A stretch of DNA of 54,884 nucleotides, from the NCBI GenBank assembly GCA_030445745.1, contig JASUTE010000010.1:1-54884 (forward strand). Reading direction: 5' to 3'. Positions 44,990 through 54,699 of the stretch are shown piece after piece. The translations under genes and the position numbers were made by a program. The notes under the pieces are model-generated. The model was not told the DNA's origin. It did no database searches and saw only the letters and a list, made by a program, of their open reading frames with translations. Source of the stretch: Candidatus Cloacimonadota bacterium (GTDB taxonomy: Bacteria; Cloacimonadota; Cloacimonadia; Cloacimonadales; TCS61). The first letter of the stretch is position 1; each line of letters starts with the position of its first letter.

Positions 44990-45040
44990 AACTCATCCTG
45001 CTGCCCTTCTCTTTCTCGCAAGCTCGAAGAGAAGGAACAT
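44990..45040. repeat. ~50-bp hairpin repeat, copy 1
   Basis: AACTCATCCTGCTG is followed by a 9-bp inverted repeat CCTTCTCTT / AAGAGAAGG (45005-45013 with 45027-45035) around CTCGCAAGCTCG, then AACAT. A near-identical copy lies at 45795-45849 in the same orientation and a partial one at 45919-45947. It is unrelated to the REP units near the RAYT. Confidence 0.75.
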
Positions 45041-45103
45041 GTCAAAGTCTGAAAGTAAAGAGTAGTATTTATTGTTTTTTTGAATGAAAATCGGAGGTAA
45101 AAA

Positions 45104-45382
45104 ATGACTAGAAAAAAACTTAAAAAAATTATAGGAAAAATGGATGAAAACGATTATGAAAAATTTAGGAAAGATTTTGGAGGTGATGACACTGAAGATG
45201 AATTAATTAGAAACTACATAGATCATCCAGAATGGGAGCCCAGAATATGTCATATACTTGGTTTAAAAACTGAGAAAGAAAAAATGCAGCAAGCAACTAT
45301 TTTCACCGGTTATGCAGCTGTTATTTCTTCAAGTATAGCTTTGATATCGTTAATCGTAACCTTAATTACTATTTATAATTAA
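45104..45382 (+). CDS. Small membrane-anchored protein
   Basis: 92 residues with a good ribosome binding site (GGAGG, seven bases before the ATG). The N-terminal two thirds are charged (RKKLKKIIGKMDENDYEKF, PEWEPRICHILGL) and the C-terminus is one membrane helix (YAAVISSSIALISLIVTLITIY). No family recognised. It sits between two copies of the ~50-bp repeat next to a broken VOC gene. Confidence 0.55.
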   Translation: MTRKKLKKIIGKMDENDYEKFRKDFGGDDTEDELIRNYIDHPEWEPRICHILGLKTEKEKMQQATIFTGYAAVISSSIALISLIVTLITIYN

Positions 45383-45396
45383 AATAGAGGGAAAGC

Positions 45397-45794
45397 ATGA
45401 AATTTAAATTTGATTTGATCGGGTTATTTGTAAAAGATATGCCCAAAATGGTGGAATTTTACCGAATGCTTTAGGCTTGGAAGTAGATTGGGATGGAAAA
45501 GACCCTTATGCCGAGTTCCAGCACAAAGGTATTCGTTTTGCCATGTTCCAAAGAGACAAATTGCCAGAATTATTGGACAAAAAACCATCCTACCCAACAG
45601 GCATAAATGGCTCTTTTGAACTGTCTATAAATGTGGGTAACCCAGAAAACGTCGACAAAACTTATAAGCAATTGCTGCAAAATGGCGCGCAAGCTATTAA
45701 TTAACCAAGAAATGAACCATGGAAGATGCGTTCTGCCATGATTGCTGATCCCGATGGCAACTTAATAGAAATTGCCAGTGATTTTTGGAAGTGA
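45397..45794 (+). pseudogene. Broken VOC/glyoxalase-family gene
   Basis: The start (ATG at 45397 behind AGAGGG) reads KFDLIGLFVKDMPKMVEFYR and then hits a stop. A one-base loss near 45470 would restore FYRxALGLEVDWDGKDPYAEF. The frame then runs through SFELSINVGNPENVDKTYKQLL to an in-frame TAA at 45702-45704, and continues PRNEPWKMRSAMIADPDGNLIEIASDFWK to a TGA at 45794. Together these are all the parts of a VOC (glyoxalase/bleomycin resistance) protein of ~130 residues, inactivated by one frameshift and one nonsense change. Confidence 0.85.
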
Positions 45795-45947
45795 ATAAAC
45801 TCATCCTGCTGTCCTTCTCTTTCTCACAAGCTCGAAGAGAAGGAACATAAGAAGTTGTGAAAGAACTTATGACATATAAAATATAAATGCCAAAAATTTT
45901 AGAAATCACGAATAAAATAGCTCGAAGAGAAGGAACATAAGAAGTTG
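45795..45947. repeat. ~50-bp hairpin repeat, copy 2 and partial copy 3
   Basis: Copy 2 (about 45797-45849) starts right after the VOC pseudogene stop and repeats copy 1 with few changes, including the 9-bp inverted repeat (45813-45821 with 45835-45843). Copy 3 (45919-45947) keeps only the right half, AGCTCGAAGAGAAGGAACAT, followed by AAGAAGTTG, which also follows copy 2. No gene is seen in the rest of the gap to 46067 apart from a terminator. Confidence 0.7.
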
Positions 45948-46067: not shown

Positions 46068-47351
46068 CTACTTCACCAACAACATTTTTCTGCTAACTGT
46101 TCCTTGCTTTGTTCGTAACCTATAAAAATAAACTCCGCTAGCAACAGCATTGCCAATATTATCTGTTCCATTCCAAATTAGGTTATGTGCTCCTGAAGCT
46201 AAGTTGCCACTGTAAAGTTGTTTGATTTTTTGTCCTTTCGTGTTAAAAATAGTAATTCCTACCTGACTCGCCTGGCTTAAACTAAAGCTGATTTTGGTTT
46301 CCGGATTAAAAGGATTAGGATAATTGCTTAGGCTTTGCACAAGTGGTGTAGGGATTTCTTCATTTGAAACTGCACTTAATCCAAACTTAACATCAGAAGC
46401 ACCTACTCCCACTTCGTATTGTTGCAATAATTCCAGGCTATCAACGTCATAAAAGTAAATCTCCGAATTTTCCACATAATCCTTAGCATCTACCGAAGCT
46501 AAAATTCCGTTTTGAGCAGCTAAAGAATTTCCGCCTAAAATATCGTTTTCTGCTGGTGTAGACAGCACTTCTAAATTCTGAGTATCGTAGATATAAATTC
46601 CAGCCGGCCAGGCATTTCCTATAAAAGCTTTATTTCCATTGGAAGCTATCGCCTGCGGACAACCACCAAGCTCCAGAGTATACTCCACCTCTTTCTCTAC
46701 AGGATCTATTATCTCAATATTGCCTGGCACATCTACGTAATTACCGGTGCAAACCAAGTGCAATTTATTGCCAACTACCGCAAATTCGCAAGGATTCAAG
46801 CTGGTTTCTATGGTCTTGTAAACAGTAAAATCATCCAGCTCGATTACAGAAACAGTTCCCGGATCATATTCATAGGTAGAAATATCGAAACCGGTATTGG
46901 CTACATACAAAAAATCGTTGTAAACAGCCATTCCCTGAGGGGCTTTGCCAACTTCCAAGCTACCTACCATTTCTTCGGTTTCTAAATCTACCTTATAGAG
47001 CTTATAGCTGTTGTTACCGGTAACATAGCCGTAGTTTCCCACAATTTCAATATCATTGGGATAACTGCTGTCTTCCAAATAGATAGATGCCACCTTTTGG
47101 CCTGTGTTCAAATTGATCTTCTCCAATGTGTTTTCGTAAGTTATTACCACATAAGCAAATTGCTGAGTTAAAGCGATTTTATTGGGTGCGCTGCCCGGAG
47201 TTTGCCCCAAAATTGCAAAGGAATTTTCAACCTGTTGTTCTGCCAAATCAATTTGCGATAGGGTTTGTGAGTTGGAATTGACTACATACACATTTTCGGC
47301 TGCTAACATAGCAAAAATTAAGATTACAAAAATTACAATAAACTTTCTCAT
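46068..47351 (-). CDS. YncE-like beta-propeller with FlgD/T9SS-type sorting domain (BtuG-like candidate)
   Basis: 427 residues. A signal peptide (KFIVIFVILIFAMLAA) is followed by six to seven beta-propeller blades (AENVYVVNSNSQTLSQIDL; YPNDIEIVGNYGYVTGN; PQGMAVYNDFLYVANTG; PCEFAVVGNKLHLVCTG; PQAIASNGNKAFIGNA). LSNYPNPFNPETKISFSL and VASGVYFYRLRT...KMLLVK form the C-terminal FlgD-like sorting domain that directs proteins to the surface in FCB bacteria. It directly follows a B12-type TonB receptor gene. In Bacteroides, BtuG is a surface beta-propeller that binds cobalamin and caps BtuB, so a similar role is inferred here with a different anchoring method. Confidence 0.75.
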   Translation of the reverse strand: MRKFIVIFVILIFAMLAAENVYVVNSNSQTLSQIDLAEQQVENSFAILGQTPGSAPNKIALTQQFAYVVITYENTLEKINLNTGQKVASIYLEDSSYPNDIEIVGNYGYVTGNNSYKLYKVDLETEEMVGSLEVGKAPQGMAVYNDFLYVANTGFDISTYEYDPGTVSVIELDDFTVYKTIETSLNPCEFAVVGNKLHLVCTGNYVDVPGNIEIIDPVEKEVEYTLELGGCPQAIASNGNKAFIGNAWPAGIYIYDTQNLEVLSTPAENDILGGNSLAAQNGILASVDAKDYVENSEIYFYDVDSLELLQQYEVGVGASDVKFGLSAVSNEEIPTPLVQSLSNYPNPFNPETKISFSLSQASQVGITIFNTKGQKIKQLYSGNLASGAHNLIWNGTDNIGNAVASGVYFYRLRTKQGTVSRKMLLVK

Positions 47352-47363
47352 TTCTCCTCCAAT

Positions 47364-49463
47364 TTAACTTTCTTTTAATTCTATTTTCATCCCTGCCTGC
47401 CAATTAAATCCAGGCTCGGGATTAAGTAGATATTTTTGATATTTTGTATTCAGTAGATTGTTCAGTTGCAAATTGCTACTGAGGGCAAATTTTCCTATTC
47501 TTATTCGGTAGGAAACAGCCGCATCCACTGTTTCATAAGCCGGCAAATATCCCCATAGATGGTCGCGGCTTGGCCATCTTTTACCCGTTCGCTGGTAGGA
47601 AACATGTGACTGGAAATTTTCTATATTAAAGTGTAAACCAAGCTTGGTTTTATAGTTAGGGAAATAAGTTAAAAATTTGCCTTCATAAGCACTATTACCA
47701 CTACGATCGTAGGCAAAATTGCGCTGCCAAGAAAAGTGTAATTTTGCCCAGCTACAAAGGGCAATTTTACTTTCCAAATTATAGGAACTTACTTCGGCTC
47801 CACCGATATTTCCCGGTTTCCAACTTAACAGCGATTTATACCAATATATAGAATCTTCCAATTTTTTGCAGCTATAGGTGAATTTAGCATAGGAATCGTG
47901 GTAGGAAATTTGCGAAAATAGTTGATACCCTCGTGATTTTTCCGGTTTCAGGTTAGGATTACCAGCAGTAGCTAGCCCGCCCTTCCAATAAAGATCGTAA
48001 AATGAGGGTAATAGGTAGGAATTTCCCCAGCTAGCTCCCACAGCATACTGCAAAATATTTTCATATTCCAGTTTACCAGAAAGATGATAACTACTGAAAG
48101 CTTGAAAATCGAGCGAATCGCTGCGCTGAGGAATATCGTGGCGCAAACTTAACTTGCCGGTAAATTCACACGGAAACAGCAGCCATTTATTTTGTAGATG
48201 CAAAAAAGCTGCATAATTTGTCATACTGGTTTGAGGCACTGAATTTACCTCAGCTGTTAGTTCTTTATACTCGAAATCTTGCTTTATTATTTCCACCCCA
48301 GGTTCTACTTTTATTTCCTCTTTTTGCCAAACTAGCGAGCTTTTATTGCCATAGCGATTATAGAAATTTTTGCCCACAGTATTCAATATTCCCGAAGATT
48401 TGGAATTATCGTAGCGTGAAAACTCGTGCAATTGGAAAAATCTGCTTTCCCATGAAATTTCCCCAATTTCGCCATTTAAATTAAGCATGTTTTTTAGCGA
48501 TTCACCTTCCAAAAAACATCTATCAAACTGAGTTAAGGAACCAATATTTCCCGGTAATTGTTTGTGATATTTCTGGTAAAAAGTCTTTAGTGCCCATTGC
48601 GAATTACTATTCCAACCCAGTTGCAGCCCTACATCAAACATCTTTTTAGCATTATTTTTTCTCTTTAAATTCTCTTCACCACTAAGCTGGTTATCATAGG
48701 TAAAATCGTTTTGAGCTGTAGTATAAGCTGCGTTTATTCCTATTTGGAATTTAGGAAAATTATGATTAATCTGCAACTGATTTTTGTAATGATCAAAGGA
48801 ACCAAAACTGCTTTGAAAACTGCATGGTTGTGGGTATTGAGTAATAAAATTCACAATTCCGCCTACAGCTCCACTGCCGCCAATTGCGCCAGCATTGGTT
48901 GTAATCACTTCCACCTCACTAACCATTTCCAAGGGTAAAGTAGAAATATCAAATTCCTGACCACTACGGTTCATAGGAATGCCATTTAACATTATCAAGC
49001 TGTACTTGGGATCTAACCCTCCGATAGAGATTGTTTGTTTACTGCTATCTGTTCCCGATTGAGATATTTGCAACTCTGTTTCTGCTTGCAAAGCTGACTG
49101 TAAATCCTGGTTTTGCACTTTTATGATGCGCCCATTAGCCAAATTTGCCAGCTCTTGTGTTTTAGGTAAAATCGAAATTACTTTTACACCTGCTGAAGGC
49201 ACACTTTGTCGCTGCAATTGCACAACAGAAGGTATTTCCGAGCTCGCAAGAGTAAGCTTTTCATAACCCAGACGAGAGAATTGCAGGCTATCCGAGTAAA
49301 TTTCAATCTCAGCAACTCCCTTTTCATTGGAAAGGTAAATTTGCTCTCCACTTTTTATAATAACTCCGGGGATGGGTCGATTAGCTGTATCCACAACCCG
49401 CAAAGTACGCGCTGGCAACAATAAAACGGAAAAAATTACGGCAATTAGCCAGATTCTCTTCAT
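47364..49463 (-). CDS. TonB-dependent receptor (BtuB-like)
   Basis: A 699-residue outer-membrane receptor. A signal peptide is followed by a carboxypeptidase-regulatory-like domain (RPIPGVIIKSGEQIYLSNEKGVAEI), the plug (LQSALQAETELQISQSG; SLIMLNGIPMNRSGQEFDISTLP; GGSGAVGGIVNF) and a 22-strand barrel. The end has LSSNLQLNNLLNTKYQKYLL, the usual TonB receptor C-terminal pattern. Its start overlaps the ABC ATPase stop (ATGA). With a riboswitch-controlled btuFC unit nearby, cobalamin is the likely ligand. An iron chelate is the alternative. Confidence 0.85.
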   Translation of the reverse strand: MKRIWLIAVIFSVLLLPARTLRVVDTANRPIPGVIIKSGEQIYLSNEKGVAEIEIYSDSLQFSRLGYEKLTLASSEIPSVVQLQRQSVPSAGVKVISILPKTQELANLANGRIIKVQNQDLQSALQAETELQISQSGTDSSKQTISIGGLDPKYSLIMLNGIPMNRSGQEFDISTLPLEMVSEVEVITTNAGAIGGSGAVGGIVNFITQYPQPCSFQSSFGSFDHYKNQLQINHNFPKFQIGINAAYTTAQNDFTYDNQLSGEENLKRKNNAKKMFDVGLQLGWNSNSQWALKTFYQKYHKQLPGNIGSLTQFDRCFLEGESLKNMLNLNGEIGEISWESRFFQLHEFSRYDNSKSSGILNTVGKNFYNRYGNKSSLVWQKEEIKVEPGVEIIKQDFEYKELTAEVNSVPQTSMTNYAAFLHLQNKWLLFPCEFTGKLSLRHDIPQRSDSLDFQAFSSYHLSGKLEYENILQYAVGASWGNSYLLPSFYDLYWKGGLATAGNPNLKPEKSRGYQLFSQISYHDSYAKFTYSCKKLEDSIYWYKSLLSWKPGNIGGAEVSSYNLESKIALCSWAKLHFSWQRNFAYDRSGNSAYEGKFLTYFPNYKTKLGLHFNIENFQSHVSYQRTGKRWPSRDHLWGYLPAYETVDAAVSYRIRIGKFALSSNLQLNNLLNTKYQKYLLNPEPGFNWQAGMKIELKES

Positions 49464-50236
49464 TTCAGCTCCGGGTAAATTAGATTGGGATTCTTGGTTA
49501 CTGGATTTTGTATTACCTGAAGTCGAGCATTATATAATCTATGTAAATTTTCTTGATTGATGATCTCTGCGGGCTTGCCATCTGCCAAAACTCTGCCTTG
49601 TTTAAGCATCACTATTCGTTCGCAATACTCAGAAGCCAAATTTATATTGTGCGAAATTAGCAAGATCAATTTACCATCCTGCTTGTTTATCTGGCTTAAA
49701 ATATGCATTATCTCTATCTGATGATTGATATCAAGTTGCGTAAAAGCTTCATCCAGCAGCATGATATCAGTTTGCTGAGCCATGGCTCTGGCAATGGAAA
49801 CGCGCTTTTTCTCGCCTCCACTAAGCTGGCTATACAGTTTGGAAGCATAGTTGCTCAGGTCTAACTTAGCCAAGATCTCTGCTACAATTTGCCTGTCTTT
49901 GTCGGAATAGTTTTGCCAGTAGCCCAAATAGGGAAAACGTCCCATTAGAACCAGCTCTTCTACTGTATAGTCGAACTGCAAACTGAACTCCTGCGAGATC
50001 AAAGCGATGTTTCGAGCCAATTCCCTTTTGCTCCACTTCTGCAGAGAGCGTTTTTTTATTAAAATATCGCCACTAGTGTAGGGTAAATAGCCTACAATGG
50101 TTTTTAATAAAGTGGTTTTACCAGCACCGTTGGGTCCTAAAAGAGCACAGAATTCCCCTTTAGGAAACTCCAGATCTACCTGGTGTAGAATTTCCTGTTC
50201 CCCATATCCTGCTGTTAATTTTTTAATTTCTAACAA
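49460..50236 (-). CDS. btuD: ABC transporter ATPase, BtuD/FhuC family
   Basis: 258 residues with Walker A GPNGAGKTTLLKTI, Q-loop ISQEFSLQF, signature LSGGEKKRVSIARAMAQ, Walker B IMLLDEAFTQLD and the switch SHNINLAS. It is of the class that powers FecCD/BtuC permeases. No other ATPase of this kind is in the window, and btuC-btuF at 52687-54418 lack one, so it probably serves them. No riboswitch is seen in its 5' region. Confidence 0.85.
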   Translation of the reverse strand: MLEIKKLTAGYGEQEILHQVDLEFPKGEFCALLGPNGAGKTTLLKTIVGYLPYTSGDILIKKRSLQKWSKRELARNIALISQEFSLQFDYTVEELVLMGRFPYLGYWQNYSDKDRQIVAEILAKLDLSNYASKLYSQLSGGEKKRVSIARAMAQQTDIMLLDEAFTQLDINHQIEIMHILSQINKQDGKLILLISHNINLASEYCERIVMLKQGRVLADGKPAEIINQENLHRLYNARLQVIQNPVTKNPNLIYPELK

Positions 50237-50344
50237 TTTTTAAACCTTATTTTTTCCTTAATTTTACAGCATAATTAACTGTTTCTAATTAGATAACACA
50301 AATAGCTTTTTCTAAAATTACAAACATATTTTTGCCAAAACTAT

Positions 50345-50372
50345 TTGACAATTCCTACTAATTTACTATGTT
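50345..50372 (+). promoter_or_regulatory. Sigma-70 promoter of the iscR-nifS-iscU unit
   Basis: TTGACA (50345-50350) and TATGTT (50367-50372) with a 16-bp spacer. An imperfect inverted repeat (TTATCC 50371-50376 with GGATAA 50384-50389) overlaps the -10 and the ribosome binding site. This is a good position for autoregulation by the Rrf2 protein. Confidence 0.6.
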
Positions 50373-50392
50373 ATCCCTCAAGAGGATAAAAA

Positions 50393-50809
50393 ATGCATAT
50401 ATCAACGAAAACTGGATACGCTTTAAGAGCCTTGGCAGAGCTGGCAGATGATGAAAAAAAACAGCCAGTTTCCATCGCCCATATCTGCAAAAAGCAAAAC
50501 TTGCCGGCAAAATATATCGAACAGCTGTTTAGGAAGCTAAAAAAGAACGGCATTATAACTAGTGTTCATGGTTCGCGTGGCGGTTATCTTTTAAATCGCA
50601 AAGCAACAGAAATTTCTCTGAAAGATATAATGCAAGCTGTGGACGAAAATATGAACTACACCTATTGTGACAACGACCAGGATCCTCTTGCTTATTGCCA
50701 AGGCAATAATTGCGGTTTTCGTAAAATTTGGGATGAGATACAGACACACTTAGATGATTATTTTTCCTCGATAAAATTAGATAAAATATTAGATAAAATA
50801 AAGGAGTAA
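50393..50809 (+). CDS. iscR: Rrf2/IscR-family transcriptional regulator
   Basis: 138 residues. The N-terminal winged helix (ISTKTGYALRALAELA; HICKKQNLPAKYIEQLFRKLKKNGII; VHGSRGGYLL) is typical of Rrf2 proteins. Three Cys residues (92, 102, 107) lie in the Fe-S region where IscR has its cluster ligands. It is the first gene of an operon with a cysteine desulfurase and an IscU-type scaffold, so it likely senses Fe-S status and represses its own operon. GAGGAT lies six bases before the ATG. Confidence 0.88.
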   Translation: MHISTKTGYALRALAELADDEKKQPVSIAHICKKQNLPAKYIEQLFRKLKKNGIITSVHGSRGGYLLNRKATEISLKDIMQAVDENMNYTYCDNDQDPLAYCQGNNCGFRKIWDEIQTHLDDYFSSIKLDKILDKIKE

Positions 50810-50813
50810 GGAG

Positions 50814-51992
50814 ATGAAAAAACCGATCTATTTGAACAACTGTTTAACCTCGAAGCCAGCACCAGAAGTGATTGAAGCAATGCTTCCCTACTGGCAGGAA
50901 AAGTTCTACTTTCCAGAAAATTTTATGAGCCAGGGTACGCAGATCGAAAGTGATATTGAAAAATACAAACAAGTAGTTGCAGACAGTATAAATGCCAAAC
51001 CCGATGAAATTCATTTTACTACTGGCGGAACTTCGGCCAACAATTTGGCAATTAAAGGTTATTTGATGGCTAATTCGCATAAAGGAAATCATATTATTTG
51101 CTCGCGAGTAGACTACCCGGATCTACTTACCAATGCTGCTTTTTTTGAAAAGAGCGGATTTGAGGTAACTTATCTGGATGCTGATGAAGAAGGATTTATC
51201 GATCTAAAGCAGCTACAACAAGCTATAAAACCGGAGACCATTATGTTCATGACTACCTGGGCCAATCACACTACCGGCACCCTGCAACCTATAGAACAGA
51301 TAAGTAAAATTTTGCAAAAAGCCGATCATAAAATTGCTTTCCACGTAGATGCCGGCCAAGCTTACGGCAAGGTTCCCATCAATGTTGAAGAGATGAAAAT
51401 AGATCTGCTTTCTGTTAGCGCTCACAAAATTCATGGTCCGGTTGGCATTGGTGCGATGTATGTTCGCCAAGGAATTAAACTGGCACCTACCAAACATGGT
51501 ATAAACCGCATCGATGAATACGAAACTGGCGGTATAAATATTGGGCTGATAGCCGGATTTGCCAAAGCCGTAGAGTTAAATTTTTCCAATTTTAACGAAA
51601 ATAACGCTAAATTGCGCCAACTCTCCGATTATTTACTAAAAAAAATCGAAGCTACCATTCCCTACACACTTTTGAACGGCCCGCGTGGTGATAAACGTGC
51701 TCCGCACAATGTCAATATTTCCTTCCGCTACATAGAAGGCGAAGCTATAATGATGATGCTAGATGCGGCTGGAATTATAGTAGCCACTGGTAGCGCCTGT
51801 TTTTCCAAAGGATTAAGCCCCAATTACATTCTTATGGCCATTGGTCGCAATCACGAAGAATCGCATGGCTCGATGAAATTCACACTTAGCCGCTATAACA
51901 CCAAAGAAGAGATCGATTATACAGTAGAAAAACTGGCTGAAATAGTTTCCGAACTTAGAAAAAGAAGTCCATTATATAAAGAGGAGAAATAA
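50814..51992 (+). CDS. Cysteine desulfurase (NifS/IscS family, atypical)
   Basis: A 392-residue PLP enzyme that supplies sulfur for Fe-S clusters. FTTGGTSANNLAIKG and VSAHKIHGPVGIGAMYV (PLP Lys205) are standard, and Cys329 in ATGSACFSK is the persulfide Cys. Two points are unusual: the N-terminal NNAAT-type motif reads NNCLTS, and the usual Glu-His pair that stacks on PLP (SxxEHxAVL) reads SRVDYPDLL, with Tyr101 in place of His. It is coupled to the scaffold gene by TAATG. Confidence 0.88.
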   Translation: MKKPIYLNNCLTSKPAPEVIEAMLPYWQEKFYFPENFMSQGTQIESDIEKYKQVVADSINAKPDEIHFTTGGTSANNLAIKGYLMANSHKGNHIICSRVDYPDLLTNAAFFEKSGFEVTYLDADEEGFIDLKQLQQAIKPETIMFMTTWANHTTGTLQPIEQISKILQKADHKIAFHVDAGQAYGKVPINVEEMKIDLLSVSAHKIHGPVGIGAMYVRQGIKLAPTKHGINRIDEYETGGINIGLIAGFAKAVELNFSNFNENNAKLRQLSDYLLKKIEATIPYTLLNGPRGDKRAPHNVNISFRYIEGEAIMMMLDAAGIIVATGSACFSKGLSPNYILMAIGRNHEESHGSMKFTLSRYNTKEEIDYTVEKLAEIVSELRKRSPLYKEEK

Positions 51993-52612
51993 TGAAATAC
52001 TCACAAAAAGTCTTAGATCATTTTATGCACCCCCACAACATAGGAAAACTGGAATTGCCGGATGCTAAAGCTACTGAAGGTAGCCCTGCCTGTGGTGACC
52101 AGGTTTCCATGTATTTGAAAGTTAACGAAGATAGCAAAGTAATCGAGGATATCAAATTCCAATCCTACGGTTGCGCTTCCAATATTGCTACAGCCTCCAT
52201 TATTACCGATATGGCCAAAGGCAAAACCTTGGATGAAGCTAAAAAACTAACTTGGAAGCAAGCCGCTGATGAGCTGGATGGTTTGCCACCTGCTAAGATG
52301 CATTGTTCAGTGCTGGCTGTAGATACTCTGCGCAAAGCTATCAAAGATTACGAAATAAAACACAACCTGGCCAGCGAAGATGAATTTAAAAAAACCACCA
52401 TTGTAGAAGAGCTGAAACACATTATTTACCCCAAAGTGGGCGAAGATATCGTTTCTCTGAAGATGGTTAAATATGTTGGTTTTGAAAATGGAGTAGCTAC
52501 CGTAGATATCGAAATTCCTAAATTCGACCAGTATCGCCAGAATGTCGCCGATGAAATTCGTGAACATCTGGAAAAATATGACGCGATAAAAAAGGTCGAG
52601 ATCAATATGTAA
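51992..52612 (+). CDS. IscU-type scaffold fused to a MIP18/DUF59 domain
   Basis: 206 residues. Residues 1-120 are an IscU/NifU scaffold with all three cluster Cys residues (Cys34 in SPACGDQ, Cys61 in SYGCASN, Cys105 in MHCSVL) and Asp36, which favours cluster release. Residues 135-206 match the MIP18/PaaD fold (VEELKHIIYPKVGEDIVSLKMV; VATVDIEIP; VEINM), usually a separate Fe-S targeting factor. The fused domain lacks the common Cys of that family (IPKFDQY in its place). It is the last gene of the iscR operon. Confidence 0.85.
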   Translation: MKYSQKVLDHFMHPHNIGKLELPDAKATEGSPACGDQVSMYLKVNEDSKVIEDIKFQSYGCASNIATASIITDMAKGKTLDEAKKLTWKQAADELDGLPPAKMHCSVLAVDTLRKAIKDYEIKHNLASEDEFKKTTIVEELKHIIYPKVGEDIVSLKMVKYVGFENGVATVDIEIPKFDQYRQNVADEIREHLEKYDAIKKVEINM

Positions 52613-52618
52613 TTTTCT

Positions 52619-52651
52619 CAGAAGCCATTCGCCCTCGGCGGATGGCTTCTG
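52619..52651. terminator. Hairpin between convergent iscU-like and btuC genes
   Basis: A 15-bp stem (52619-52633 with 52637-52651, one G-T pair) around a 3-nt loop. There is no T tract on either side, but it sits exactly between two convergent genes and may stop transcription from both. Confidence 0.6.
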
Positions 52652-52686
52652 CACTCATCCCACTATATGCACGTGTAAAGAACTAT

Positions 52687-53604
52687 TTATTTTTTCAACA
52701 TTATCAATATAAAAAAGGGACAGCCGATAAAAGCTGTAATTGTTCCTACCGGAATTTCGATGACCGCGATATGCATTGCTATAAAATCGCATAAAATTAA
52801 TAGGAAGGCTCCGCCCAGGGCTGAAATCGGCATGGAATAAGTTTTATTACCACCCAAAAGTAAACGCACCAAATGCGGAACTACTAAACCCACAAAACCA
52901 ATAATGCCAGCATAGGCAACTGTGAAGCCGGTTAGCAGCGAGCTGATTACAAAAATTCTTTTGCGAACTTTTTTTACGTCCACTCCCAGACTGGTGGCTA
53001 CTAAATCTCCCGTAACCAGTATATTCAGCTGGCGCGAAAGCGAAAACAAATAGGCCATAAGTAATATTGAAACTACCAAAATAACGATAAATATCTGCCA
53101 TTCCAAATTACTGAAAATATGACCTAAATTACCCATTAACACATTCATTATCGAGCTTATGTCATCTTGATTGAGATACATGACCAGCGAAATTAGGGCA
53201 GAAAAGAAGAGTCCGATGATAATGCCGGAAAGCAGTAGGCGGGTTTTGCTGAAAATACCGCCCCAATGCGCTAACTTCCAAACTAAAACCATGGTAAACA
53301 AAGCCCCGGCAAAACCAAACAGCGGCATGAACAGAAAAAATCCTAAAACCGAAGCTAAAATACTGCCAAAAGCAGCTCCCGAGGAAATTCCCAAAATATA
53401 GGGCTCCGCCAAGGGATTATTCAGCATTATCTGGTAGGAATGGCCGATGCCGGCCAGTACCAAACCGGTTAGAAAAGCCAGCAAAAAGCGCGGTAGGCGT
53501 ACTTGCAAGGCTATGAAGCGGGAATCTACCCGAAAACTGAAATAGAAATAGACTAGCAAGCCAAACAGGAGCAATGAAACCAGAGCTAAGATTTTCTTAT
53601 TCAT
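52687..53604 (-). CDS. btuC: BtuC/FecCD-family ABC permease
   Basis: 305 residues, nine to ten membrane helices. PRFLLAFLTGLVLAGIGHSYQIMLNNPLAEPYILGISSGAAFGS is the family signature (PR-hinge and GxxxGAA-type loop), and YAGIIGFVGLVVPHLVRLLLG is the ATPase-contact segment. It overlaps the start region of the btuF gene end by 8 nt. The riboswitch upstream of btuF makes cobalamin the substrate. Confidence 0.92.
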   Translation of the reverse strand: MNKKILALVSLLLFGLLVYFYFSFRVDSRFIALQVRLPRFLLAFLTGLVLAGIGHSYQIMLNNPLAEPYILGISSGAAFGSILASVLGFFLFMPLFGFAGALFTMVLVWKLAHWGGIFSKTRLLLSGIIIGLFFSALISLVMYLNQDDISSIMNVLMGNLGHIFSNLEWQIFIVILVVSILLMAYLFSLSRQLNILVTGDLVATSLGVDVKKVRKRIFVISSLLTGFTVAYAGIIGFVGLVVPHLVRLLLGGNKTYSMPISALGGAFLLILCDFIAMHIAVIEIPVGTITAFIGCPFFILIMLKK

Positions 53605-54418
53605 GAATTAGCTCCTGCAGTTTAGCTATGCCCTGCACAAAGCGGGGTGAAGCACGTAAGATTATATCCGGATCGATATCTTGGATGGTGTAGATGCGGC
53701 CGTTTTGCACTGCTGAAATATTCTGCCAGCCTTTGCGGGCAGCGATTTGCGCTTTAGTTACCCCAGGATAAGTTGTAATAATAATCTGCGGATCGGCAGC
53801 AATCACCTTTTCAGGGCTTATACGAGAGTAATCACGCGGTAAAGTGGGAAAAATATTTTTTCCGCCCGCTGCCTGCAAGAGCTGGCCCACAAAAGAGCTA
53901 TCAGAAACGCTCATCAAAGGCTCACCATAAATTTCAATGTACACCCGCGGAGTTTGCGCAAACTTTCTGGCTTGCAACTGTTGCAGCTGTTGTTCCAATC
54001 TGCTGCGCAATTTTTGGGCTGCCTGGGGTTTATCTATTTCATTCCCTATTTTTATAATAGTATCTAGCAGCTGTGGAATATCTTGCGGATAGGCCGCCAC
54101 CACGGGAATTTGCAGCTTCTGCAACTGACTTCTTAGCTGATCTTGTTCCAAAGCGGTGATAAATATTTTTTGGGGCTGCAAGCGCACAATTTTTTCCAGA
54201 TCTACATGACCAAAAGTGCCTACTAATGTCTTGTTTTGTAATTCAGGTGGAAAATCGCACTCTTGGGTAACTCCCACAATGCTTTCGGCAGCACCAAGTT
54301 TAGCTATGATCTCGGCTAATTCAGGAGAAGTAACAACCCAGCCTTGGGTAGAGGATGAAGAAGTACAGGATAAGATAATGGTGGAAATTATTAACAAAAA
54401 CGTGATCTTTTTCAACAT
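53597..54418 (-). CDS. btuF: Cobalamin-binding periplasmic lipoprotein BtuF
   Basis: 273 residues. The signal ends in a lipobox (STIILSC, Cys about residue 17), so it is a lipoprotein. The type III binding-protein fold is seen in RVVVTSPELAEI-like start (WVVTSPELAEIIAKLGA), VGVTQECDFPPEL, LVGTFGHVDLEKIVRLQPQKIFI and SRISPEKVIAADPQIIITTYPG. GGAGAAAG precedes the ATG. First gene behind the cobalamin riboswitch. Confidence 0.92.
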   Translation of the reverse strand: MLKKITFLLIISTIILSCTSSSSTQGWVVTSPELAEIIAKLGAAESIVGVTQECDFPPELQNKTLVGTFGHVDLEKIVRLQPQKIFITALEQDQLRSQLQKLQIPVVAAYPQDIPQLLDTIIKIGNEIDKPQAAQKLRSRLEQQLQQLQARKFAQTPRVYIEIYGEPLMSVSDSSFVGQLLQAAGGKNIFPTLPRDYSRISPEKVIAADPQIIITTYPGVTKAQIAARKGWQNISAVQNGRIYTIQDIDPDIILRASPRFVQGIAKLQELIHE

Positions 54419-54504
54419 ACTTTCTCCTTTTTAGTTTACGTGCAGCTTAAGATGCGAGAAAATATGTTTTTGGCTGCTTTCTTTTGCTCCGAAGATGCAG
54501 CTAA

Positions 54505-54660
54505 AAACTCAATGGCAGGTTTCCTGACTTTCAGCGTTAAAATAGATCTAGCCTTCCCATTCCTGTTTGGAACAGTGACCAGACCCGCAAAAGGCTGATT
54601 ACAGTGGCGGAGACCGCTCCCGATTCTCACGAGATTCCCTTTTACTCCAGCACCATTAAG
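54505..54660 (-). promoter_or_regulatory. Cobalamin (AdoCbl) riboswitch
   Basis: On the minus strand the leader of btuF contains the conserved blocks GGTGCTGGAG near the 5' end (P1/P2 side), GGGAATC, the B12-box core GCCACTG, and AGTCAGGAAACCTGCC at the 3' end. These are the standard markers of the cobalamin riboswitch. It lies about 90 nt before the btuF start, so it can sequester the ribosome binding site or stop transcription when B12 is high. Confidence 0.93.
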
Positions 54661-54699
54661 CTCACGTTATGTTACTAAATTTTGGATTCTCTATTTTTG

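Follow-up and report, generated by a model that had tools for sequence, protein, structure and literature searches.

A BtuG-like propeller protein with a type IX-type sorting domain, encoded behind a BtuB-like receptor in a riboswitch-headed gene cluster of Cloacimonadota

We analyzed a stretch of 54,884 nucleotides from a Candidatus Cloacimonadota bacterium (contig JASUTE010000010.1 of assembly GCA_030445745.1; hereafter the window), in which the gene for a BtuG-like beta-propeller protein closes a minus-strand cluster of putative vitamin B12 uptake genes. As presented in Table 1, a cobalamin riboswitch stands at the head of the cluster and is followed by the genes for a BtuF-like binding protein and a BtuC-like permease, an interval of 2.4 kb, and the genes for a BtuD-like ATP-binding cassette (ABC) ATPase, a BtuB-like TonB-dependent receptor and the propeller protein. 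From the open reading frame coordinates, the BtuD and receptor genes overlap by 4 bp and a gap of 12 bp separates the receptor gene from the propeller gene. An earlier note on this DNA, made from the letters alone, had proposed a BtuG-like B12 binder at 46068-49463, directly behind a BtuB-like receptor and a B12 ABC ATPase. We found these reading frames as it described them, but the span contains the entire receptor gene in addition to the propeller gene; the riboswitch had also been overlooked, as had the BtuF and BtuC genes, which lie beyond an opposite-strand Rrf2-NifS-NifU block.

Table 1. Features of the propeller gene and its cluster (positions in the window; T9SS, type IX secretion system; pLDDT, predicted local distance difference test)
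Feature	Position	Strand	Basis or remark
BtuG-like propeller protein, 427 aa	46068..47351	-	
Plain signal peptide, ~residues 1-18	47298..47351	-	Read by eye
Seven-bladed propeller, residues 20-325	46377..47294	-	AlphaFold2 model, mean pLDDT 93.3
C-terminal T9SS/FlgD-type immunoglobulin-like (Ig) domain, residues 338-427	46071..46340	-	TIGR04183 and PF18962 above cut-off; strands in model
BtuB-like TonB-dependent receptor	47364..49463	-	Plug and barrel; TIGR01779 best model
Receptor loop SIYWYKSLLSWKPGN	47808..47852	-	Trp548 aligned with BtuB3 Tyr538, loop EL8; role of EL8 from PMC10404256
BtuD-like ABC ATPase	49460..50236	-	ABC_tran; heme, iron and corrinoid ATPase models best, below cut-offs
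BtuC-like permease	52687..53604	-	FecCD 260.7 bits; top NCBIfam models are BtuC, below cut-off
BtuF-like periplasmic binding protein	53597..54418	-	PF01497; NCBIfam BtuF 84 bits, below cut-off
Cobalamin riboswitch	54497..54672	-	RF00174 84.3 bits against gathering threshold 31.5; single copy in genome
Rrf2, NifS and NifU genes, antisense within the cluster	50393..52612	+	Same nesting in relatives
Conserved element between Rrf2 and BtuD	50354..50374	-	15-sequence alignment; sole 0-mismatch copy in genome

The plain signal peptide that had been claimed for the propeller protein was borne out: read by eye, the N-terminus is of the Sec type and shows no lipobox cysteine. At the other end, the FlgD/T9SS-type domain of the earlier note was recovered by three models, all above their cut-offs (FlgD_ig PF13860, 43.3 bits for a cut-off of 27; Por_Secre_tail PF18962, 31.7 for 27; TIGR04183, 41.4 for 23). 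The AlphaFold2 model of the whole protein (predicted template modelling score, pTM, 0.76; mean pLDDT 93.3) has seven blades, and residues 329-334 form a short linker, modelled at low confidence, between the propeller and the C-terminal domain. Counted in the same way, the net charge is -31 for the propeller domain and -10 for BtuG1. The nearest named relatives of the protein belong to Candidatus Cloacimonadota bacteria, at 49% identity or less.

The kinship with BtuG was analyzed with a profile of 22 relatives of the propeller (profile A1). Against the PDB, this profile matched BtuG entries at 3e-21 to 3e-17 and generic YncE at 1e-5, a difference of about 40-50 bits, and its residues 23-324 aligned with residues 61-382 of BtuG1 in one collinear stretch. 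With the single propeller sequence, BtuG was matched at 6.4e-9. Six residues are common to the window protein and BtuG1 (N25, N57, P98, N186, P187 and G203). Single-propeller BtuG entries superposed on the model with a root-mean-square deviation of 2.6-3.2 over about 340 columns. We also compared rotated BtuG1 and two rotated Bacteroidetes propellers (L107 and L109) with the family profile; the gain over the native order was about 2 bits at most, and the comparison was set aside as carrying little information because rotations merely move the cut.

The receptor gave TIGR01779 (TonB-B12) as its top NCBIfam model, at 94 bits, far below the equivalog cut-off of 599.7. As a family profile against the PDB, its best solved matches were BtuB1-3 of Bacteroides thetaiotaomicron, which are partnered by BtuG (BtuB2 4.7e-73, BtuB1 1.1e-69, BtuB3 3.9e-69), with Escherichia coli BtuB at 9.2e-66; a single-sequence search of the PDB returned only BtuB at 1e-10. 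A genome scan with the receptor as sole query found nothing. In BtuBG, the corrinoid occupies the central pocket of the lid until loop EL8 of BtuB pushes it out; Tyr538 of BtuB3 contacts the ligand, and the equivalent residue is Trp in BtuB1 and Phe in BtuB2 (PMC10404256). We located Tyr538 as the Y of GFYSPVN by counting along chain 8p98_A and placed it on our alignment; the tip residues Ser524-Leu531 of EL8 named in the same article were not placed. All 29 receptor rows shown carry an aromatic at this position (25 W, 3 F and 1 Y), followed in most by xPxN, as in BtuB2 and BtuB3. This aromatic was considered as a marker of BtuG-partnered receptors and rejected as weak, since E. coli BtuB also has a tyrosine there and differs only in the xPx stretch, the next three residues being absent from it.

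To link these genes to B12, we searched 98 relatives with the propeller, the receptor and the cobalamin riboswitch family and compared the positions. A propeller homologue extending beyond the tail was found in 85 of the 98 genomes, and 84 near-full-length homologues were retained once a fragment (G015) had been left out. The propeller lies within 600 bp downstream of a same-strand BtuB homologue in 46/84 (30 of the 31 members of the window's family, 10 of the 14 from other families and 6 of the 39 members of one further family, f10). A cobalamin riboswitch lies within 400 bp upstream of the propeller itself in 34/84; 32 of the 39 f10 members and 2 of the 14 from other families have it. Overall, 77/84 propellers have a BtuB homologue directly before them, their own riboswitch or both (both in 3). 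The window genome encodes methylmalonyl-CoA mutase, MeaB and lysine 5,6-aminomutase, and CbiD was found in 0 of the 30 genomes searched, a single gene being an incomplete test of B12 synthesis. Taken together, the B12-linked mutase genes and the CbiD result support a need for B12.

We then considered loci identified by the propeller alone. Genome contigs were scanned with patterns drawn solely from the propeller, neither the tail nor the receptor being used. The 79 loci obtained belong to Cloacimonadota, Zixibacteria, Calditrichota, KSB1, WOR-3, LCP-89, Ignavibacteria, Neomarinimicrobiota, Bacteroidetes and other bacteria; this set overlaps with that of the relatives, with at least eight contigs in common as judged by their length. 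By blastp comparison with the receptor of the window (E 1e-5), a BtuB-like receptor was found within 800 bp upstream in 59/79 loci and farther away in 6, and 14 had no receptor hit. Homologues lying mostly beside non-B12 receptors, which the earlier note had named as the pattern that would speak against its proposal, were thus found in neither set. Among the 14, one propeller (L082) still follows a receptor, recognized by its plug domain, and three have a riboswitch immediately upstream (L066, L107 and, by position only, L087). The Bacteroidales protein of L107 is a lipoprotein with DUF5074. A riboswitch was assigned within 500 bp upstream of the receptor or the propeller in 28/79 loci, mostly from positions alone, which leave the identity of the contig unproven. 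A direct Rfam scan of eight loci confirmed the riboswitch in each; it immediately precedes the receptor in six of them and the propeller in the other two. In some loci, including WOR-3, one receptor is followed by two tandem propellers, of which the first has a lipobox and the second a T9SS-like tail (L062, L065, L070). In others, two tandem BtuB-like receptors directly precede a lipoprotein propeller (L054, L057, L078, L083, L088, L094, L098).

The means of anchoring differ among these propellers. On the 83 propeller frames of the 79 loci, we scored 39 T9SS-like tails, 16 dockerin-like tails, 19 strict lipoboxes and 9 frames without any of these by rule; in 7 of the 9 a lipobox can be read by eye (L061, L066, L093, L100, L103, L108, L109), and these were counted as lipobox frames in the tree and in a second Fisher test. 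The lipobox pattern was present in 2/55 frames with a C-terminal tail vs 19/28 without (Fisher p 4e-10, nominal because the rows are related). A quick tree, built on 83 rows with the truncated L098 and L106 left out, requires at least 8 anchor changes; in it, a long branch leads to a single clade that unites the Bacteroidetes rows. The anchor is thus exchanged among relatives, as a T9SS-like tail, a dockerin-like tail or a lipobox that are nearly mutually exclusive, and each type would hold the protein at the surface, as a capture device needs. Dockerin-like repeats end the propellers of Zixibacteria (L047, L049, L050, L053, L059, L064, L069, L096 and others); of 9 suspected dockerin proteins tested, 7 matched Pfam Dockerin_1, 5 of them above cut-off, and these tails suggest some cohesin-like surface partner. 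The search of the window genome for T9SS machinery covered SprA and PorU, and SprA was above cut-off, in a 2045-aa frame. Together with the tail, SprA and a PorU-like gene indicate that the propeller protein is probably delivered to the surface by the T9SS.

Overall, we read the product of the propeller gene as a BtuG-like corrinoid-capture propeller that acts together with the BtuB-like receptor of the preceding gene, with a probability of roughly 0.77. The B12-binder proposal of the earlier note is in this way largely supported by gene context, riboswitches and profile matches to BtuG and BtuB, over a wider range of bacteria than it had considered. The protein would be made with a Sec signal peptide, its C-terminal domain probably directing export by the type IX system across the outer membrane, and it would remain on the cell surface. 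There, its strongly acidic propeller face may bind corrinoids, which BtuG does very tightly, and the propeller may cap the receptor as a lid; the receptor would then pull the vitamin off the propeller, presumably through the hand-over loop, and pass it to BtuF-BtuCD.

Several results weigh against this reading. The Pfam domain DUF5074 had no match in the window propeller at E up to 1; it was present in one of the 22 members of profile A1, at 0.0029, and scored 84 and 44.9 bits in the Bacteroidetes proteins L107 and L109 and 32.2 bits in an Ignavibacteriae protein (L067). The CTGxY motif of the family is not in BtuG1, but it is in L107 and L109; of the worry that the pocket might be unlike that of BtuG, this absence stands, whereas the fold, the collinear profile and the six residues in common go the other way. 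No near-full-length propeller homologue was found in 13 of the 98 relatives by the propeller search, and neither a BtuB nor a riboswitch link was found in 7/84 (G034, G048, G049, G051, G058, G070, G083), two of which (G034, G051) begin at a contig end. Among the 14 wider loci with no receptor hit, L100 and L103 adjoin SurE and L093 a T9SS-tailed peptidase, neighbours by which these three offer no B12 link. The PorU-like protein of the window genome reached 386 bits, below its cut-off of 420. Finally, the archaeal repeat propeller 1l0q topped the profile search at 2.5e-26, through three repeated stretches, and was first in Foldseek on the model, with BtuG entries at ranks 2-17 and then nitrous oxide reductase at about 1e-12. 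The fold Z scores are likewise close (1l0q 37.4, BtuG1 36.5, 6-phosphogluconolactonase 34.3, nitrous oxide reductase 34.0). Fold comparison alone was rejected as proof of kinship, since unrelated seven-bladed propellers score nearly as high; because this margin is small, our claim of kinship rests on the sequence profile and gene context. The same scores would suit a generic surface propeller of the YVTN/S-layer type, an adhesin or structural protein co-regulated by chance. With a riboswitch of their own before 34 of the 84 relatives, and with BtuG entries that far above generic YncE, we consider this very improbable.

A different objection concerns the lid. The propeller could bind B12 at the surface or as a released scavenger and raise the local concentration, like BtuH and BtuJ, with no capping of the receptor. 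In f10, 28 of the 39 propellers follow a riboswitch of their own and lack any BtuB within 5 kb, so that a shared transcript is not required there, and when the receptor and propeller were modelled as one chain, by in-frame read-through of the receptor stop, the tethered model (pTM 0.60) gave no confident orientation and no interface. Against this stand the position of the propeller right behind the receptor, kept in 46/84 relatives and 59/79 wider loci, and the EL8 motif retained in the receptors; we regard action without a lid as unlikely, if the most serious of the alternatives. A ligand other than cobalamin, corrinoid-like or metal-containing (for example heme or cobinamide), is scarcely probable for the receptor and propeller. 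It would fit the B12 scores of the receptor and ATPase, which are under the cut-offs while heme models also match, and BtuG2 itself binds cobinamide (PMC10404256), but the riboswitch control and a receptor profile nearest to BtuB in the PDB argue for cobalamin.

The 2.4-kb interval of the cluster, between BtuC and BtuD (window 50236-52687), is occupied by the antisense Rrf2-NifS-NifU genes, probably a neighbour and not part of the uptake device. The same nesting was observed in L034, L037, L038, L039, L043, L044, L048, L051, L063 and L074. Iron-sulphur genes lie inside the btu cluster in 15 of the 17 Cloacimonadota-type loci examined (four end at contig ends and L032 has no Rrf2 hit); of the other two, L036 is cut off and L052 has no iron-sulphur genes there. 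Between Rrf2 and BtuD, the window and 14 loci share an element of about 30 bp (AACATA...GTA...). It overlaps what is likely the promoter of Rrf2, and in many genomes no more than about 25 bp lie between its end and the start of BtuD. An Rrf2 operator that acts on both sides is a possible reading. Its use as a mark of a wider regulon was not supported: the genome has one exact copy, and a reversed control pattern equalled the loose hits. On the other side of the propeller gene, towards SerC, lies a repeated stretch, CTTCTTATGTTCCTTCTCTTCGAGCTT (window 44990-45880), and the remnant of a short minus-strand frame, glyoxalase-like by eye and interrupted by a stop (window 45400-45800).

Known T9SS type A cargo includes proteases, adhesins and glycosidases; the window protein shares the Sec-type N-terminus and the C-terminal sorting domain, above curated cut-offs, and the cargo would here be a putative vitamin-capture lid. 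A SusD-type lid is a helical lipoprotein, whereas the lid proposed here is a propeller, and the folds of BtuH and DUF4465 (BtuJ) also differ from a propeller; neither domain was found in the window propeller protein by the domain search. The combination of a TonB-dependent receptor with a surface lid follows the model proposed for SusCD-type lidded transporters (PMC10404256), and BtuH and BtuJ are described as accessory proteins that bind B12 at the surface and are encoded in riboswitch loci (PMC13398666). Like BtuG1-3 of B. thetaiotaomicron (PMC10404256, PMC6143338), the window protein is seven-bladed and acidic, matches in a collinear profile, and is encoded beside btuB in a cobalamin-riboswitch cluster. 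Unlike them, it belongs to another phylum, shares about 20% identity, and has a T9SS-type C-terminal domain in place of a lipobox or lipoprotein export signal. We therefore call it a BtuG-like, non-lipoprotein variant and not BtuG proper, as it lacks the lipoprotein character; it probably works like BtuG.

BtuG has been said to occur only in Bacteroidetes, with an origin tied to the gut (eLife 2018, PMC6143338), and lidded TonB receptors to seem exclusive to Bacteroidetes (2023, PMC10404256). In the literature covered, which included no preprints and few subscription papers, we found no published BtuG-like protein outside Bacteroidetes or with a T9SS tail. A broader view, which we offer tentatively and would sooner doubt than affirm, is that the lidded B12 importer is old across the Fibrobacteres-Chlorobi-Bacteroidetes (FCB) group and its lid anchor (lipid, T9SS-type or dockerin-like) has been swapped repeatedly, and that in Cloacimonadota, where the cluster encloses an antisense iron-sulphur operon and a conserved element on the Rrf2 side, B12 capture would answer to iron-sulphur status as well as, through the riboswitch, to B12. 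Should the lid prove FCB-wide among bacteria of sediment, water and digesters, it was not created by competition in the gut. The series of anchors is also a natural experiment, in which the same lid is tethered N-terminally by lipid or C-terminally by a sorting domain, and one that tests whether the pedal-bin hinge needs an N-terminal tether.

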